Origin: Halogeometricum rufum
GTDB taxonomy: Archaea; Halobacteriota; Halobacteria; Halobacteriales; Haloferacaceae
DNA: 64,000 nucleotides
Direction of reading: 5' to 3'
Assembly (NCBI RefSeq): GCF_900112175.1
Contig: NZ_FOYT01000003.1
Location: 124,001-188,000, forward strand
Both the position numbers and the translations under genes were made by a program. The notes beneath the pieces were generated by a model. It searched no databases, was not told the origin of the DNA, and worked only from the letters and a program-made list of their open reading frames with translations. Positions 23,833 through 33,924 of this stretch are shown one piece after another (within the stretch, counting starts at the first letter, position 1; every line of letters starts with the position of its first letter).

Positions 23833-24498
23833 ATGACGTTCACCGACGAACTCGCGCCCGTGGCCGACCCCGTGTGGGACGCCATCCTCGACCACCCGAT
23901 GGTCCGGCAGTTGGGCGACGGGAGCCTCGACACAGAACCGTTCGAGTACTGGGTCAAGCAGGACTACGTCTACCTCGTGGACTACGCTCGGGTGTTCGCC
24001 TACGGCGCGGCGACGGCGCCGGACCTGGAGACGATGGGGACGTTCGCGGACCTGTTGGACTCGACTATCGACACCGAGATGGACCTCCACCGCGCGTACG
24101 CCGCGGAGTTCGGCATCACCGAGTCGGAGTTGGAGGCGACGACGGCGTCGCCGACGACGCGGGCCTACACGGACTTCCTCGTCCGCGTCGCCGCGACGGG
24201 GACGTTCGGTGACCTCGTGGCCGTCCTCCTCCCGTGCATGTGGGGGTTCAACGAGACGGGTCTGCGACTGGCCGCGGACGGGATGCCGGACGACGACCGG
24301 TACGCCGAGTGGATACGGACGTACTCGGGCGAGGAGTTCACCGAACTGACGACCTGGTGCAAGGAGTTGATGGACGAGGTGGCCGCCGGCGCGGGCGAGG
24401 AGGCGAGAGACCGCTTCCGCGACCTGTTCTACACCTCCGCCCGGTACGAGTACAGGTTCTGGGACGCCGCGTGGCGGCAGGAGGACTGGGAGCTATGA
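23833..24498 (+). CDS. tenA: TenA-family aminopyrimidine aminohydrolase (thiaminase II, Cys type)
   Basis: A 221-aa TenA protein that hydrolyses amino-HMP to HMP in salvage of degraded thiamine. Visible residues: WVKQDYVYLVDYARVFAYGA (near residue 35), the catalytic cysteine in AVLLPCMWGFNETG (near 135), SGEEF (near 162) and ARYEYRFWDAAW at the C-terminus with its conserved Y/E. Length matches bacterial TenA. The ATG at 23833 follows a TATA-like element by about 25 nt. The next gene, a Cys-less TenA, overlaps it by 4 nt. Confidence 0.92.
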   Translation: MTFTDELAPVADPVWDAILDHPMVRQLGDGSLDTEPFEYWVKQDYVYLVDYARVFAYGAATAPDLETMGTFADLLDSTIDTEMDLHRAYAAEFGITESELEATTASPTTRAYTDFLVRVAATGTFGDLVAVLLPCMWGFNETGLRLAADGMPDDDRYAEWIRTYSGEEFTELTTWCKELMDEVAAGAGEEARDRFRDLFYTSARYEYRFWDAAWRQEDWEL

Positions 24499-25340
24499 CC
24501 GGCGACGACGCCTCCCGCGACGAGAGCGCGTCGTCGGGCGACGCTCCGTCGTCGAACGGCGGCCCGGCCGACGAGAGCGACGCCCCCGCCCCGGTTCCGG
24601 AGACGTTCGAGGCGTACGCCGAGACGGTCGAAGCGCCTCGGTTCACCGACTGGCTCCGCGAACGCGCCGAACCCGACTGGTCGGCGGCGACGACGCATCC
24701 GTTCACGCGCGAACTGGGCCGAGACGAACTCGACGACGACGCGTTCCGGCGCTATCTCGTGCAGGACTACGCCTTTCTGGAGACGCTGGTCGGACTCGTC
24801 GGCCACTCCGTCGGCGACGCGCCGACGATGGCCTCGAAGGCGCGACTCGCCGACTTCCTCGGGACGCTGACGGCCGAGGAGAACGACTACTTCGAGCGCT
24901 CGTTCGACGCCTTGGGCGTCCCGCCGGAGACGTACGAGGACCCCGAGCGGACGCCCGTCACGCTGGCGATGGAGGACCTGCTCGAACGCGCGGCGCGAGA
25001 GGGCGGGTACGCCGAGACGCTGGCCGTCCTCGTCCCCGCCGAGTGGATGTATCGGGAGTGGGCGACGGCCGTCGCCGACGCGTCGCCGTCGCGGTTCTAC
25101 CTCGACGAGTGGATACGACTGCACGCCGTCGAGGAGTTCCGGACGTTCGTGGGGTGGATTCGCGAGGAACTGGACCGCGAGGGCGCCGCCGCGTCGCCCC
25201 GCCGCAGGCGGCGTCTCGACCGCCTGTTCCGGCGGACGGCGTCGCTGGAAGTCGCGTTCTTCGACGCGGCGTACGAACCCGGCGACGCGAGACCGACCGG
25301 GGAGACGGACGACTCGTCGGAGGGTGAGCGCCGATGGTGA
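24495..25340 (+). CDS. Second TenA-family protein lacking the catalytic cysteine
   Basis: A 281-aa TenA-fold protein with an acidic disordered N-terminus (about 35 residues). Conserved positions: HPFTRELG, FRRYLVQDYAFLETLVGL (near residue 92) and AVLVPAEWMYREWA (near 180), where the catalytic cysteine of TenA is replaced by A-E, and ASLEVAFFDAAY near the end. This resembles the TenA_E group known from plants and bacteria, in which a glutamate replaces the cysteine and formylamino- or aminopyrimidines are hydrolysed. It overlaps tenA (ATGA) and the symporter gene by 7 nt, so the three are translated as a unit. Confidence 0.85.
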   Translation: MTGDDASRDESASSGDAPSSNGGPADESDAPAPVPETFEAYAETVEAPRFTDWLRERAEPDWSAATTHPFTRELGRDELDDDAFRRYLVQDYAFLETLVGLVGHSVGDAPTMASKARLADFLGTLTAEENDYFERSFDALGVPPETYEDPERTPVTLAMEDLLERAAREGGYAETLAVLVPAEWMYREWATAVADASPSRFYLDEWIRLHAVEEFRTFVGWIREELDREGAAASPRRRRRLDRLFRRTASLEVAFFDAAYEPGDARPTGETDDSSEGERRW

Positions 25341-26950
25341 GTTCGGGGGTCGCACTCGCGCTCACCGTCGCCACGCTCGCCGTCTTCACCGGTCTGGGCG
25401 TCTGGTTCTCGCGGGGGAAGGTCGGCTCCGTGGAGGACCTCATCACCGCCCGGAACGAGACGGGCGAGGGGCAGTTGAGCGCGACGCTCGTCGCCTCGGT
25501 GATGGGCGTGTGGATACTCCTCTCGGCACCCGAGGCCGGCGCGCTGTACGGCATCGCGGCCGTCGTCGGCTACGGCGTCGGCGAGGCGGTTCCGATGCTC
25601 GCGTACTCGCGACTCGGCCCGCGGATTCGAGCGCTGATTCCCGAGGGGCACTCGCTGACGGAGTACGCCTACGCCCGCTACGGCGGGGCGATGTACGCGT
25701 TCGTCATCGTCGTCAGCGTCCTCTACATGTTCGTCTTCCTCGCCGCCGAGTTGACGGGTATCTCGCTGGCGCTGAACTACGTCGCCGGCGTGCCGCAGTG
25801 GCAGACGGCGCTGCTCGTCGGCGGGTTCGTCCTCCTCTACACCGGGTACGGCGGCCTCCGCGCGAGCATCTTCACCGACACCGTGCAGACGGTGGTGATA
25901 CTGCCGTTGCTCGTCCTCAGCGTCGGCGCGGTGGTGCTGACGCTCGGCGGCACCGGCGCGATTCACGAGGGCGTCGTCGCGGCGAACCCGACGCTCCTGG
26001 ACCCCGGGTTCGTCCCCGGACTCAGGTTCGGAGTCGCGCTCGTCTTCGCCGTCCTCGGCGCGGAACTGGTCAACCAGACGTGGTGGCAGCGCATCTACGC
26101 GGCGACCGACTCGGGCGTGGTCGAACGCGGCTTCCGCACCGCGACGGTGGCGAACGGGCTCGTCCTCGTGTTGGCGACGCTGCTCGGCATCGTCGCCGTC
26201 GGCGGCGCCGACGTGGTGATGCGACTCGGGAGCGCCGACTACAACGCCGGCATCGCCTTCTTCGTCCTGCTGGACGGGACGTTCGCCGACCCCCTCGTCC
26301 TCGTCGTCCTCCTCCTCGCCGTCGCACTCGTGATGAGCACGGCCGACACGCTGTTCAACGCGCTTTCGAGCCTCGTCACCGCGGACCTGCCGCGACTCCT
26401 CTCCGACCCGGACGACCGGACGCTCCGCCTCGGCGCGCGGGCGGTGACCGTCGTCGTCGCCGTCGGGGCCGTCGCCGTCAGCCTCCGCGCGCAGAGCGTC
26501 CTCCGACTGTTCTTCGTCGCCGACTTGCTCGGCGCCGCCGTCGGCTTCCCCCTCGTCTACGGCCTGTTCACCGGTCGACTCACCGGCGGCGGCGCGCTGG
26601 CGAGCAGTCTCGGCGGACTCGCGGCGGGAAGCGCGTTCTTCCCCTTCCCGTTCGGACTGCACGGCGCGGCGGACTCGCTCCTCGGCGGCGCGCTTCCCGC
26701 CCCGGACCCGACGTACCTGCTCCCGTTCGCGGGCGCGTTCCTCGTCTCGACGGTGCTGGCGCTGACCGCCGCCCGACTGTCGAGCGACGAGTTCGACCTG
26801 AGCCGACTCTCCGGGGAGATTCGCCGCCTCGACGAACCCGTGGCCGACGGCGGACGCGTCGGTGGTGGCGGACGTGCCGGCGGTAGCGGGCGCGTAGGCG
26901 ACGGCCGCGGGGAGTCGGAGGCGGCCGACGCCGAGGAGGTGCGCGACTGA
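25334..26950 (+). CDS. Sodium:solute symporter (SSS), putative thiamine-precursor transporter
   Basis: A 538-aa protein with about 13 transmembrane helices and the SSS pattern. ALTVATLAVFTGLGVWFSRG is helix 1, LISATLVASVMGVWIL-type text is helix 2, and GLRASIFTDTVQTVVILPLL (near residue 175) is the family motif. The C-terminal 70 residues are Gly/Arg-rich and probably cytoplasmic. It starts inside the end of the second tenA gene, with a Shine-Dalgarno GGAGGGTGA at 25319-25327. Its place in a tenA operon points to uptake of HMP or another thiamine fragment; SSS proteins linked to thiamine genes in haloarchaea have been predicted as thiV-type transporters. Confidence 0.82.
   Translation: MVSSGVALALTVATLAVFTGLGVWFSRGKVGSVEDLITARNETGEGQLSATLVASVMGVWILLSAPEAGALYGIAAVVGYGVGEAVPMLAYSRLGPRIRALIPEGHSLTEYAYARYGGAMYAFVIVVSVLYMFVFLAAELTGISLALNYVAGVPQWQTALLVGGFVLLYTGYGGLRASIFTDTVQTVVILPLLVLSVGAVVLTLGGTGAIHEGVVAANPTLLDPGFVPGLRFGVALVFAVLGAELVNQTWWQRIYAATDSGVVERGFRTATVANGLVLVLATLLGIVAVGGADVVMRLGSADYNAGIAFFVLLDGTFADPLVLVVLLLAVALVMSTADTLFNALSSLVTADLPRLLSDPDDRTLRLGARAVTVVVAVGAVAVSLRAQSVLRLFFVADLLGAAVGFPLVYGLFTGRLTGGGALASSLGGLAAGSAFFPFPFGLHGAADSLLGGALPAPDPTYLLPFAGAFLVSTVLALTAARLSSDEFDLSRLSGEIRRLDEPVADGGRVGGGGRAGGSGRVGDGRGESEAADAEEVRD
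26933..26940 (+). promoter_or_regulatory. Shine-Dalgarno of the 40-aa membrane peptide
   Basis: GAGGAGGT lies inside the end of the symporter gene, 9 nt before the ATG at 26950. It is a near-perfect match to the anti-SD and supports translation of the tiny downstream ORF. Confidence 0.65.
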
Positions 26951-29064: not shown

Positions 29065-30381
29065 TCAGTCCTCCCAGTTGTGGAGTGCGTCGAGGAAGAT
29101 GTCGCGCACGTCGTCCTCGGTCACCGGACGCGGGTTACACCGGAGCAGTCGCTGCTGCGTCTCGACGGTCTGTCTGGCCAGCCAATCGACGTCCTCCTCG
29201 GTGATGTCGGCGAGTTCGGCGAGTCCGCTCGGCAGGACGTTCTGGTCCTGTTGAAGCTGGACGTACTGCGATTGGAGGGCGTCTGCGGCCTCCCTGTCGG
29301 TCATGCCGGTCGTGTCGACGCCGAACATCTCCGCCACGTCGGCGAATCGGCCGGGGTCGCTCGCGGCGTTGTAGTCGATGGTACTGGCGGGCGTGAGGAC
29401 GGCGATGGTCTCGCCGTGTTTCGTGTGGTAGCGATTGCCGACCGGGTACGCCATCGCGTGGCAGAGGCTCGCGCCGGCGGTCAGCCCCGCGATTGCACCG
29501 AACAGCGCCCCCTGCAGCATGTTCTCGCGCGTCTCCAGGTCGTCGCCGTTGTGGACCGCCGCCCGGACGTTGTTCGACAGCAGGTCGATGGCCTTCTCGG
29601 AGAACATCTCCGTCAGGGGCGTCCGCCCGGCGTAGACGGGTCGGTCCGCCGGGTCCGTCGGTCGCAGGAGCGAGTCGTACTCGTGCGTCGTGTACCCTTC
29701 GATGGCGTGCCCGAGGGCGTCCATCGCCGTCTTGGCGGTGAGGTCCGGCGGGAGCGTCGTCGTGAGCGTCGGGTCGAGGACGGCGGCGTCGGCGCGCACG
29801 TGGTTGCTGGAGATGCCCTCCTTTATCTCCTTCTCGGGGACCGAGAGGATGGCGACGGGCGAGATCTCCGCGCCCGTGCCGGCCGTCGTCGGCATCAGTA
29901 CGAGGGGGTCGCCGGACTCCGTCAGCGCCTTCCCGTCGCCGGTCGGTTCGGCGATGTAGTCGAGGGGCGACCCGCCGTTGGCGATGACCGCGCGCGCCAC
30001 CTTCGCGGTGTCCATGCAACTGCCGCCGCCGAGGCCGACGTAGAAGTCGTACCCCGCCTCGCCCGCGGACTCGCGGACGTACTCGATGCAGCGTTCGGCG
30101 GCCTCGACGGACGGTTCCCGCTCGGACTCGTCGTAGACGTCGACCGAGAGGCCGGCCGCCTCCAGATGCTCGGTGACGCGGTCGGCGTGGCCGATGTCGA
30201 CGAGGGTCTCGTCGGTGACGACGAGTCCGTGCGCGTCGTCGTCGACGCCGAGGTCACGGAGTTGGAACGCGAGTTCGTCCGTCGAGTCGCGGCCGAACCG
30301 AATCTCGGGCATCGTGACGTGCCAGACCGTCTCGGTCGAGAGTTCGTGGTTCGGCGCGGAGACCGACCGCTCGTACCCCAT
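29065..30381 (-). CDS. Iron-containing alcohol dehydrogenase (hydroxyacid-oxoacid transhydrogenase type)
   Basis: A 438-aa group III (iron-dependent) dehydrogenase. NAD-binding GLGGGSCMDTAKVAR is near residue 116, LVLMPTTAGTGAEISPVAIL near 160, and the metal site uses D/H residues in MDALGHAIEGYTTHE (near 223) and CHAMAYPVGNRYHTKHGE (near 315). The closest familiar type is the 4-hydroxybutyrate dehydrogenase / hydroxyacid-oxoacid transhydrogenase group. Its ATG directly follows the stop of the lactonase gene (no gap). Together they match 4-hydroxybutyrate made from gamma-butyrolactone and oxidised to succinate semialdehyde. Substrate is inferred. Confidence 0.87.
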   Translation of the reverse strand: MGYERSVSAPNHELSTETVWHVTMPEIRFGRDSTDELAFQLRDLGVDDDAHGLVVTDETLVDIGHADRVTEHLEAAGLSVDVYDESEREPSVEAAERCIEYVRESAGEAGYDFYVGLGGGSCMDTAKVARAVIANGGSPLDYIAEPTGDGKALTESGDPLVLMPTTAGTGAEISPVAILSVPEKEIKEGISSNHVRADAAVLDPTLTTTLPPDLTAKTAMDALGHAIEGYTTHEYDSLLRPTDPADRPVYAGRTPLTEMFSEKAIDLLSNNVRAAVHNGDDLETRENMLQGALFGAIAGLTAGASLCHAMAYPVGNRYHTKHGETIAVLTPASTIDYNAASDPGRFADVAEMFGVDTTGMTDREAADALQSQYVQLQQDQNVLPSGLAELADITEEDVDWLARQTVETQQRLLRCNPRPVTEDDVRDIFLDALHNWED

Positions 30382-31185
30382 CTACGACCACCCCGACCGA
30401 ATCTCCTCGAACTGCTCGGGGTCGTGCCCGTACACCACCTCGGCGTCGTGACGCCGCTGGAGGTCTCTGAGCGTCTGCAGGCTGTCGAACCAGTGGCGTC
30501 CGCTCCAGAGGAGGCCCGCGCCGAGGGGCACCTCGTCCTCGTAGTTGACGTCCTGATAGATTTCGTCGCCGGCGAACAGCAGTGTGCCGTGGTCGTCGAG
30601 GTGAATCATCGTCCCGGTGAGGCCGGGCGTGTGGCCCGGGAGACGCAGGAACTCGACGTCCTCGAAGTGCGTCTCGCGGTCCTGATGGAGCACCTGCCAG
30701 TTCAGGTCGTGGTCGAAGTCGTCGAGGACGTACGCGGCGCTTCCCTCGTCGGTCTTCGCGGAGTAGTAGGCGAACTTCAGTTCCTCCTCGTGGACGTACA
30801 CGGGCACGTCCGTGCCGTCGAAGTGGTGCAGGCCGCCGGCGTGGTCGAGGTGCAGGTGCGTCTGGAAGACGGCGTCGATGTCCGAGAGGTCGTAGCCCGC
30901 GTCAGCGAGGTCACCGTCGAGGGAGTGTTCCCGCGCGTCGTGCGGATAGAACGCCTGCGTGAGTCCCTCGGGCCAGTGGCCGTCGAGGGCGTCCTCGTGG
31001 TTGCCGGTGTCCCACAGAATCGTCGCCTCGGGGTGGTCGATGACGAGGTTCCACACCGGAATCTCGACGTAGTCCGTGTCCGGATTCGGTTCGTCGTGCG
31101 ACCCGAGGGTGTTCCCCTCGACGAGGTAGTTCAGGTCGCACTCCAGTCCGCCGCGATGGATGACGTCGATGGTCGCCTCTACCAT
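30382..31185 (-). CDS. Metallo-beta-lactamase-fold lactonase (AHL lactonase / BlcC family)
   Basis: A 267-aa metallo-hydrolase of the N-acyl homoserine lactonase family. The zinc motif THLHLDHAGGLHHF (H-x-H-x-D-H) is near residue 107; later histidine/aspartate ligands lie in LPGHTPGLTGTMI (near 178) and FAGDEIYQD (near 200), with a final YGHDP (near 256). The family includes AiiA (quorum quenching) and BlcC/AttM (gamma-butyrolactone). Context favours the latter, because an iron-alcohol dehydrogenase gene starts at the next base. The ATG at 31185 is preceded by a perfect 12-nt palindrome and a T-rich TATA region. Confidence 0.87.
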   Translation of the reverse strand: MVEATIDVIHRGGLECDLNYLVEGNTLGSHDEPNPDTDYVEIPVWNLVIDHPEATILWDTGNHEDALDGHWPEGLTQAFYPHDAREHSLDGDLADAGYDLSDIDAVFQTHLHLDHAGGLHHFDGTDVPVYVHEEELKFAYYSAKTDEGSAAYVLDDFDHDLNWQVLHQDRETHFEDVEFLRLPGHTPGLTGTMIHLDDHGTLLFAGDEIYQDVNYEDEVPLGAGLLWSGRHWFDSLQTLRDLQRRHDAEVVYGHDPEQFEEIRSGWS

Positions 31186-31195
31186 GTTCCGAACT

Positions 31196-31207
31196 ATCGT
31201 TAACGAT
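31196..31207. promoter_or_regulatory. Perfect palindrome at the lactonase promoter
   Basis: ATCGTTAACGAT is a perfect 12-nt palindrome 10 nt upstream of the lactonase ATG (31185). On the minus strand a TATA-like CTTTTTACA (about 31208-31216) directly precedes it, so the palindrome covers the region between TATA and the predicted transcription start. Repressor operator inferred. Confidence 0.5.
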
Positions 31208-31329
31208 GTAAAAAGATTAGCACGGTTACAGAAGCAGTAGTGTATGTTTCGGCGAAATTCTTTGTTCTGGAAATTAGGCAGCCGACGAGACGGCGTCGTC
31301 GCCACACCTCTCGAACCGGGACCGAGTGT

Positions 31330-32187
31330 CTACTCGGCGGGTGACCCTCGTCCGGGCGGGGCGGTGCCGGGACGGGACGAACGCATCGTCTCGCCGTCGA
31401 GTGCGACCAGGAGGAGTGCGGCGGCCCAGACGACGGCCGCCGACGCCGCGGGCGCGAGGAGCGGCGACTCGCCGCTCAGCGCGAACAACACGCCGCTGTC
31501 GAAGACGTTCCACTGCGCGTGGAAGACGGCGGCGAGGAGGACGCTCCCCTTCGCCCGGACGTAGAGCCACGCCAGCACGACGGAGAGGCCGACGACGCCG
31601 AGCAGGTAGACGGCGAAGGGACCGCTCTGTCTCGTCCCCTGAACGAAGAACAGGGGGAGGTGCCAGACGGCCCAGCCGACGCCGACGACGAGTGCCGCGG
31701 CGGTGGTGCTGTAGCGTTCGAGCAGGTGCGGGAGCGCGTAGCCGCGCCAGCCCATCTCCTCGCCGAACCCCCCGCGGAGGAGGAGGACGTAGAGGAACAC
31801 CGTCGCGTAGACGACGGGCAGCGTTCCGCTCGCGAGACTGAACGACGCGCCGGAGAGCGCGACGTAGACGCCGTAGCCCGCGAGCGACAGGAGGGGCGCG
31901 CCGAGGAGGGCCACCAGCCACCATCGGGCACCCGTCCGCCACCGAACGGCCTGCGCGGCCCACGCGCGGAGGTCACCGTCGCGCCAACTCAGGATGCCGG
32001 CGGCGACCAGCGGTCCGAAGCCGGCCAGCGTACTCAGTATCGGCCACGCGCCGGCGGTCGTTCCGAGGAACGCTCCGAGTCCCCACAGGACCCACGAGAC
32101 GAGGAACGTCAGCGCGAAGAACTCCGCGACTCGAACGAGCGGCCGCGAACTCGCCGACCGCTCCGAGGAGGGGGTGTGTTCGGTCAT
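31330..32187 (-). CDS. CPBP-family intramembrane protease (type with EEMGWRG)
   Basis: A 285-aa polytopic membrane protein, about eight helices. CPBP motif 1 is GFGEEMGWRGYALPHLLER (near residue 155), motif 2 is AVWHLPLFF (near 187), and a further histidine/asparagine motif is in FHAQWNVF (near 240). The ATG at 32187 (MTEHTPSSERS) is preferred over a GTG at 32199. It stands alone between the lactonase operon and a plus-strand gene. It is one of three CPBP proteins in the window, all of different subtypes. Target unknown. Confidence 0.88.
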   Translation of the reverse strand: MTEHTPSSERSASSRPLVRVAEFFALTFLVSWVLWGLGAFLGTTAGAWPILSTLAGFGPLVAAGILSWRDGDLRAWAAQAVRWRTGARWWLVALLGAPLLSLAGYGVYVALSGASFSLASGTLPVVYATVFLYVLLLRGGFGEEMGWRGYALPHLLERYSTTAAALVVGVGWAVWHLPLFFVQGTRQSGPFAVYLLGVVGLSVVLAWLYVRAKGSVLLAAVFHAQWNVFDSGVLFALSGESPLLAPAASAAVVWAAALLLVALDGETMRSSRPGTAPPGRGSPAE

Positions 32188-33036: not shown

Positions 33037-33924
33037 TCAGGCCGTCGGTCGAACCTCGTCCGAGGACTGCGGCCCGGAACCGCGTGAACCCGAGACGACC
33101 GGCCAGACGACGACGAGGACGACGGCCAAGACGACGGTGAGGAAGTTTCCCGACACCGGCGTCTCCACCAGCATCGTGGGCGCGTTGCCGACGGCGTGAA
33201 CGCCGACGGCGACGAGGAGGTTCCCCGTCCGGTGGTAGACCAGCGCGAACAGCAGTCCCATCAGGAACAGCATCCCGAGACTGACGAGGAGCGCGTCGAG
33301 CGGGAACCCCTGATAGAGCCGGTTGGGGACGTGCAGAAGCGAGAACACCGCCTGCGACCCCACGAGTGCGAGCAGGAAGCCGCGCCTGCGGTGCCGGAGC
33401 TTCAGCACCAGTTGGTCGAGCAACACGGCGCGGTAGAGCACCTCCTCGAACAGCGCGTTTCCGAACAACTGAGCGACGAGGAGTCCCAGCACGGCACCGA
33501 CGCCGGCCGTCGACCAGAGGGGGTCGAGCGCGACCGACCCGGTCTGGACGTACGCCACCGCCGCGCCGACGACCTGAATCGTCGCCCAGAGCCCGGCGGT
33601 GACCGCCGCCGCGAGCGGGAGTTTCGAGCGTTCCAGCCCGAGGTCACGGAGGCGCAGTCCGCCGACGAGTATCAGCAGACCCACCAAGACGAGCAGGACG
33701 TTCACGGCGTTCACCAGGAGCGTGGGACCCACCAGCCCGCCGGTGGCGACGAAGACGGGCCTGAACACCGTCTCGAGGAACCACTCGCTCCGGAAGACGA
33801 CCAGATTGAACGCCGCGCTCAGAACGACTTCGACGGCGAGGACGGCGGCGAGGAGGCGCCAACTGATCACCCGCCGGTCGGACAGGTCGACCGCCACGTG
33901 GGGGATTCGGACGTTTCGGTTCAT
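33037..33924 (-). CDS. CPBP-family intramembrane protease (third copy)
   Basis: A 295-aa membrane protein with about eight helices. CPBP motifs: NALFEEVLYRAVLLDQL (near residue 155; E-E-x3-R), FSLLHVPNRLYQG (near 200, histidine) and VGVHAVGNAPTM (near 240, H-x3-N). A short cytoplasmic tail ends the protein. It is unrelated in detail to the CPBP proteins at 18875 and 31330. Convergent with the membrane gene at 32345. Function unknown. Confidence 0.87.
   Translation of the reverse strand: MNRNVRIPHVAVDLSDRRVISWRLLAAVLAVEVVLSAAFNLVVFRSEWFLETVFRPVFVATGGLVGPTLLVNAVNVLLVLVGLLILVGGLRLRDLGLERSKLPLAAAVTAGLWATIQVVGAAVAYVQTGSVALDPLWSTAGVGAVLGLLVAQLFGNALFEEVLYRAVLLDQLVLKLRHRRRGFLLALVGSQAVFSLLHVPNRLYQGFPLDALLVSLGMLFLMGLLFALVYHRTGNLLVAVGVHAVGNAPTMLVETPVSGNFLTVVLAVVLVVVWPVVSGSRGSGPQSSDEVRPTA

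Follow-up and report, generated by a model that had tools for sequence, protein, structure and literature searches.

The window, a stretch of 64,000 nucleotides (G000:C3:124001-188000) from a 4.19 Mb genome of the order Halobacteriales, contains on its minus strand a lactonase gene and an iron-containing alcohol dehydrogenase gene that adjoin without a gap (Table 1). A preliminary description had already placed a zero-gap lactonase/dehydrogenase pair at these positions, and both open reading frames and the junction were verified in the sequence and with Pfam. An A+T-rich stretch near 31200-31212 could represent a weak candidate for a TATA element. No motif common to the relatives was obvious when the upstream sequences were compared by eye.

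Table 1. Features of the lactonase/dehydrogenase pair (nucleotide positions in the window; residue numbers in the encoded proteins).
Feature	Position	Strand	Details
Lactonase gene	30382..31185	-	267 aa, ATG start; Pfam Lactamase_B 70.7 bits (cut-off 22.7)
Iron-containing alcohol dehydrogenase gene	29065..30381	-	438 aa; Pfam Fe-ADH 133.4 bits (cut-off 31.3) and ADH_Fe_C
Zero-gap junction	30379..30384	-	Lactonase TAG (30382-30384), dehydrogenase ATG at the very next base; read from the sequence itself
Upstream intergenic region	31186..31329	-	Likely promoter of the pair, inferred from sequence
Lactonase active-site features	H110/H112/D114/H115 (HLHLDH motif), H185, D207, Y210, H254		GcL/AaL/AiiA-type fold
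Dehydrogenase features	118-121 (GGGS); D221/H225/H308/H322; D57		D221/H225/H308/H322 are the metal ligands; D57 occupies the position that decides between NAD and NADP

The lactonase is a member of the metallo-beta-lactamase superfamily, within which its best relatives are AHL lactonases (Pfam, NCBIfam). Its predicted structure (pLDDT 85) matches the fold of GcL, AaL, and AiiA, and the best PDB matches and nearest solved relatives are GcL (Foldseek E 5e-26) and AaL. The likeness to GcL, AaL, AhlS, and AiiA extends to the seven metal ligands and the catalytic tyrosine, all of which are invariant in 35 paired homologues. However, the haloarchaeal lactonase differs from these enzymes in overall sequence (about 24-28% identity in structural alignment), in its scores below all curated equivalog cut-offs (AhlS, AiiA, AttM, AidB, and YtnP; the best is AhlS, at 150 versus 475 bits), and in the acyl-binding patch of AaL, where the haloarchaeal lactonases have invariant tyrosines in place of W26 and F87 and a proline in place of W200. 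Since AaL hydrolyses gamma-butyrolactone (kcat/KM 1.4e5), delta-lactones (about 4.5e5), and AHLs as well or better (PMC6062542), the fold leaves the substrate of the lactonase undecided. A literature search on haloarchaeal AHL lactonases yielded passing mentions at most. Solo lactonases, encoded without the dehydrogenase, are found in many haloarchaea and form a clade of their own (100/99 support). The window genome carries one as its second lactonase (G000:C1:1671867-1672664, within locus L072, G000:C1:1661868-1681867), 61% identical to the paired enzyme and adjoining an SDR gene, at a locus that also includes genes for an acyl-CoA dehydrogenase and an acyl-CoA ligase. A second recurring arrangement, in which a solo lactonase gene is divergent from an AMP-binding acyl-CoA ligase gene, was observed in loci L077, L078, L084, L085, and L100.

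The dehydrogenase has the features expected of an iron-containing alcohol dehydrogenase, with G118-S121, D221, H225, H308, and H322 invariant in 35 paired enzymes. Its orthologues are named hydroxyacid-oxoacid transhydrogenase (HOT) by RefSeq/NCBI, and the enzyme joins the HOT-type proteins in a 12-row clade of the tree (96/86); both results agree with the wording "hydroxyacid type" in the preliminary description, which had hinted at this HOT-like nature. All HOT proteins carry two insertions (PMC5125639). The window dehydrogenase and its relatives carry the first of these, 19 residues between helices 5 and 6, as the block EYDSLLRPTDPADRPVYAGRTP, which is found in neither BlcB nor FucO. Unlike the HOT subfamily (ADHFE1, cd08190), the paired haloarchaeal enzymes lack the 13-residue insertion between helices 8 and 9, which is missing in every one with a readable region; the window enzyme has 5 residues between the VGN motif and HG, where Deinococcus HOT carries the 13-residue insert. 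Strict HOT membership was rejected because of this missing second insertion, and the dehydrogenase is, as far as its sequence tells, HOT-like, failing one defining feature. Under the position rules for the coenzyme given in the same review (PMC5125639), D57 predicts a preference for NAD+. An AlphaFold prediction for the dehydrogenase had a pLDDT of 51 and was set aside. HOT is the most active animal enzyme oxidising 4-hydroxybutyrate, and HOT-type activity outside animals was described as unknown in that 2016 review of the iron dehydrogenase family (PMC5125639). No paper on a haloarchaeal HOT was found in a literature search.

The distribution of the pair was surveyed in a sample of 293 Halobacteriales genomes drawn from the order. 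An orthologous lactonase (71-100% identity) is present in 47 of them, counting a partial copy at 76% in G156, and an orthologous dehydrogenase (66-100% identity) in 55. Both occur in 45 genomes (Fisher p about 1e-40, a value overstated since genomes share ancestry), and match coordinates place the two genes next to each other on one strand in every one of these 45, which belong to seven haloarchaeal families. Synteny, the check proposed in advance for this pair, is therefore conserved in the sampled Halobacteriales, and the combination of co-occurrence and adjacency indicates that the pair is a conserved module, beyond chance. Gene calls in 20-kb neighbourhoods give junction lengths that are mostly -13 to +3 bp in the relatives; the few junctions of 65-69 bp are apparent start-site choices of the simple gene caller. 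The pair and its conservation are observed directly, and we infer that the two genes are co-transcribed as one transcription unit. Two genomes have the lactonase without a dehydrogenase match. Decaying copies were observed at two places: in one of these two genomes (G175, L192:4280-5314), an intact lactonase is followed directly downstream by a 77-residue dehydrogenase remnant, and at G156:C34:19027-20864 the dehydrogenase is in two pieces beside the partial lactonase. Outside the haloarchaea, the search returned just weak lactonase matches in other parts of the phylum.

Amongst the named genomes, the nearest pair is that of Halogeometricum pallidum (lactonase 90%, dehydrogenase 87% identity). 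DNA similarity to the window ends at the borders of the pair in this genome (31216-29069), in G248 (31186-29062), and in G183 (31185-29065); a separate universal-stress-protein DNA match between the window and H. pallidum lies apart from the pair. Pairwise distances for the lactonase and the dehydrogenase are correlated (Mantel r 0.71, a value reached in 0 of 999 permutations). The window lactonase clusters in the tree with sequences of other families, and the pair is absent from the one other sampled genome of the window's genus. The pair thus seems to move as a unit.

A third gene accompanies the pair in three relatives (G183, Halolamina salifodinae, and Halobacterium hubeiense), where an SSADH-type aldehyde dehydrogenase begins 23-24 bp downstream of the dehydrogenase on the same strand. 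The loci of Halolamina and Halobacterium hubeiense hold the full set of lactonase, dehydrogenase, and SSADH-type gene, and that of Halobacterium hubeiense is located on plasmid pSTJ001. The earlier remark that no aldehyde dehydrogenase is nearby is correct for the window, in which no such gene was found near the pair, but does not extend to these relatives. The in-operon enzyme, encoded by HHUB_RS13390 in Halobacterium hubeiense, is named NAD-dependent succinate-semialdehyde dehydrogenase by RefSeq; its best NCBIfam model is PRK09406 (592-604 bits versus a 730-bit cut-off), and it falls under every curated SSADH cut-off. Its nearest homologue in the window genome is on another contig (C6:167323-168678; 68% identical, best model PRK09406). 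Homologues are common with or without the pair (191 of 293 genomes), and because the family is this widespread in haloarchaea, presence in the window genome alone proves nothing and co-occurrence with the pair was dropped as evidence.

Other neighbours are less constant. An AMP-forming acyl-CoA ligase gene lies within 6.5 kb of the pair in about eleven species, in several arrangements, whereas the majority of pair loci, that of the window among them, lack a ligase at that distance. Compared with its relative G049, genome G123 is missing both lactonase and ligase and keeps the dehydrogenase, indicating that this enzyme can use a hydroxyacid of other origin. Thiolase, OB-fold (ChsH2-type), and HMG-CoA-synthase-like genes were observed around the pair or the dehydrogenase in L037 (4417-13432), L046, and L036, in two sets in L037 and L046. 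Further conserved neighbours (ribosomal genes, TctA, UDP-sugar dehydrogenase, integrase, and others) were rejected, as they look like lineage-specific position effects, and no transporter or regulator is consistently linked among the pair loci.

The locus had been proposed as a blc-like operon, and Agrobacterium C58 blcABC (attKLM; NC_003064.2 143235-146707) served as the reference for this comparison. Both systems combine a metallo-beta-lactamase-fold lactonase, an iron alcohol dehydrogenase and, in some haloarchaea, an SSADH-type dehydrogenase in one operon. Unlike blcABC, the haloarchaeal genes are in reversed order with the lactonase first, the neighbours that were scanned include no BlcR-like IclR regulator, and each component belongs to a different branch of its family from its Blc counterpart, the aldehyde dehydrogenase being closer to PRK09406 than to PRK11241. 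Identity between the lactonase and BlcC is 29%; with the AttM model (NCBIfam NF045700; cut-off 390 bits) the lactonase reaches 107 bits and BlcC itself 486, and the tree separates the lactonase from BlcC and the BlcC-like proteins of Desulfovibrio and Desulfonatronum (100/100). The dehydrogenase is 32% identical to BlcB, which sits in a proteobacterial FeADH clade (100/100), whereas the haloarchaeal enzyme groups with HOT-like enzymes. Orthology with BlcC and BlcB was rejected on identity, curated scores, and trees, and the claim that these are the "same two family members" as in Agrobacterium was not supported; what survives of the blc-like proposal is an operon conserved in seven families, with an SSADH-type third step in the three relatives. 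The simplest account is convergent assembly, in which the haloarchaeal pair would function like Blc yet falls outside the Blc operon family on membership tests.

Several bacterial contigs offer related arrangements. A Desulfovibrio sp. contig (L131:3318-5326) carries an iron alcohol dehydrogenase gene followed by a BlcC-like lactonase gene (49% identity to BlcC), which parallels the haloarchaeal pair in bacteria, and a Desulfonatronum contig has an iron alcohol dehydrogenase and a BlcC-type lactonase about 2 kb apart. A Peribacillus plasmid (L094:2504-9167) encodes in a row an aldehyde dehydrogenase, HOT, another iron alcohol dehydrogenase, an MFS transporter, and a succinate-semialdehyde dehydrogenase, and is likely a 4-hydroxybutyrate cluster without a lactonase.

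Given the SSADH-type gene directly downstream of the pair in three relatives, a Blc-like chain is the best reading of the haloarchaeal locus. The pair would be a lactone-catabolism operon leading from a lactone through a hydroxyacid to a semialdehyde, most likely with gamma-butyrolactone and 4-hydroxybutyrate; we infer its substrate, cofactor, and flux, and place the probability of this reading at roughly 60%. The dinuclear-metal lactonase would open the lactone ring to give an omega- or gamma-hydroxyacid, and the HOT-like iron alcohol dehydrogenase would oxidise the hydroxyl group, yielding a semialdehyde, with NAD+ as probable cofactor (D57) and possibly by transhydrogenation to 2-oxoglutarate. 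The SSADH-type aldehyde dehydrogenase, encoded within the operon in Halolamina and Halobacterium hubeiense, would then form a dicarboxylate, so that the likeliest route would run from gamma-butyrolactone to 4-hydroxybutyrate, succinate semialdehyde, and succinate. Three observations favour gamma-butyrolactone as the substrate: the link of HOT to 4-hydroxybutyrate, the SSADH-type neighbour, and the activity of AaL. Haloferax mediterranei converts gamma-butyrolactone into the 4HB units of a 4HB-containing PHA (PMC3880725), which demonstrates that a haloarchaeon can open this ring. Against a gamma-butyrolactone operon stand the restriction of the adjacent SSADH to three species and the acyl-CoA ligase found instead in about eleven, which could divert the hydroxyacid into CoA metabolism. 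The AHL activity of AaL, the persistence of the dehydrogenase in G123, and the absence of a consistently linked transporter or regulator also count against it. That haloarchaea evolved a gamma-butyrolactone/4-hydroxybutyrate operon independently of bacterial blcABC, by bringing together a GcL-like lactonase and a HOT-like dehydrogenase, is a tentative proposal to which we give somewhat less than even odds.

The same chemistry could serve a different natural substrate, such as delta-valerolactone, epsilon-caprolactone, or a substituted gamma-lactone. The activity of AaL is higher on delta-lactones than on gamma-butyrolactone (PMC6062542), the in-operon aldehyde dehydrogenase does not reach any curated SSADH cut-off, and in some species the pair has thiolase, HMG-CoA-synthase-like, and acyl-CoA ligase genes on its flanks; yet RefSeq assigns that aldehyde dehydrogenase to succinate semialdehyde and HOT-type enzymes are known for 4-hydroxybutyrate, and we regard degradation of another lactone or hydroxyacid as unlikely. 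It is quite improbable that the lactonase is a quorum-quenching AHL lactonase whose partner is merely co-transcribed or cleans up by-products. This role would fit the NCBI name of the protein (N-acyl homoserine lactonase family protein), the AHL lactonases that are its closest solved structures, and the qsd operon of Rhodococcus (QsdA lactonase, QsdC acyl-CoA ligase), which resembles the haloarchaeal loci where a lactonase lies beside an acyl-CoA ligase. However, QsdA is a phosphotriesterase-like lactonase and, unlike in the haloarchaeal pair, no iron dehydrogenase is described with it (PMC6262395). The constancy of the iron dehydrogenase as partner in all 45 double-positive genomes makes AHL opening less likely, since that reaction leaves the dehydrogenase unexplained; no linked amidase was seen, and the acyl-binding residues of AaL are replaced.

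The constancy of the dehydrogenase, rather than of the ligase, also counts against a role in acyl-CoA/PHA metabolism, in which the lactonase and a linked AMP-forming ligase would produce hydroxyacyl-CoA and the dehydrogenase would be a side branch. Ligase cluster c2 adjoins both paired and solo lactonases, often divergently, the lactonase and ligase are missing together from G123 and present together in G049, and gamma-butyrolactone is a source of PHA in Haloferax mediterranei (PMC3880725). Nevertheless, with most pair loci free of a nearby ligase, we consider this role very improbable.

The partnership with a lactonase, and with an SSADH in some species, points HOT-type enzymes to lactone or 4-hydroxybutyrate metabolism. 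If the gamma-butyrolactone operon did arise independently, it would provide the first physiological role for an ADHFE1/HOT-branch enzyme from prokaryotes, and much of what is annotated as "AHL lactonase" in haloarchaea would be catabolic rather than quorum quenching. The name "N-acyl homoserine lactonase", given automatically to many haloarchaeal proteins, may mislead searches for archaeal quorum quenching. Genes that open and drain gamma-butyrolactone are also of practical interest, as a haloarchaeon fed this lactone makes 4HB-containing bioplastic.

Two further groups of genes were observed in the window. Upstream of the pair, two Rce1-like (CPBP) membrane protease genes are located near one another on the minus strand (31330-32187 and 33037-33924). 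On the plus strand, a tightly overlapping set of two TenA/THI-4 family genes and one sodium:solute symporter gene (23833-26950) possibly forms an operon for the salvage of thiamine precursors.
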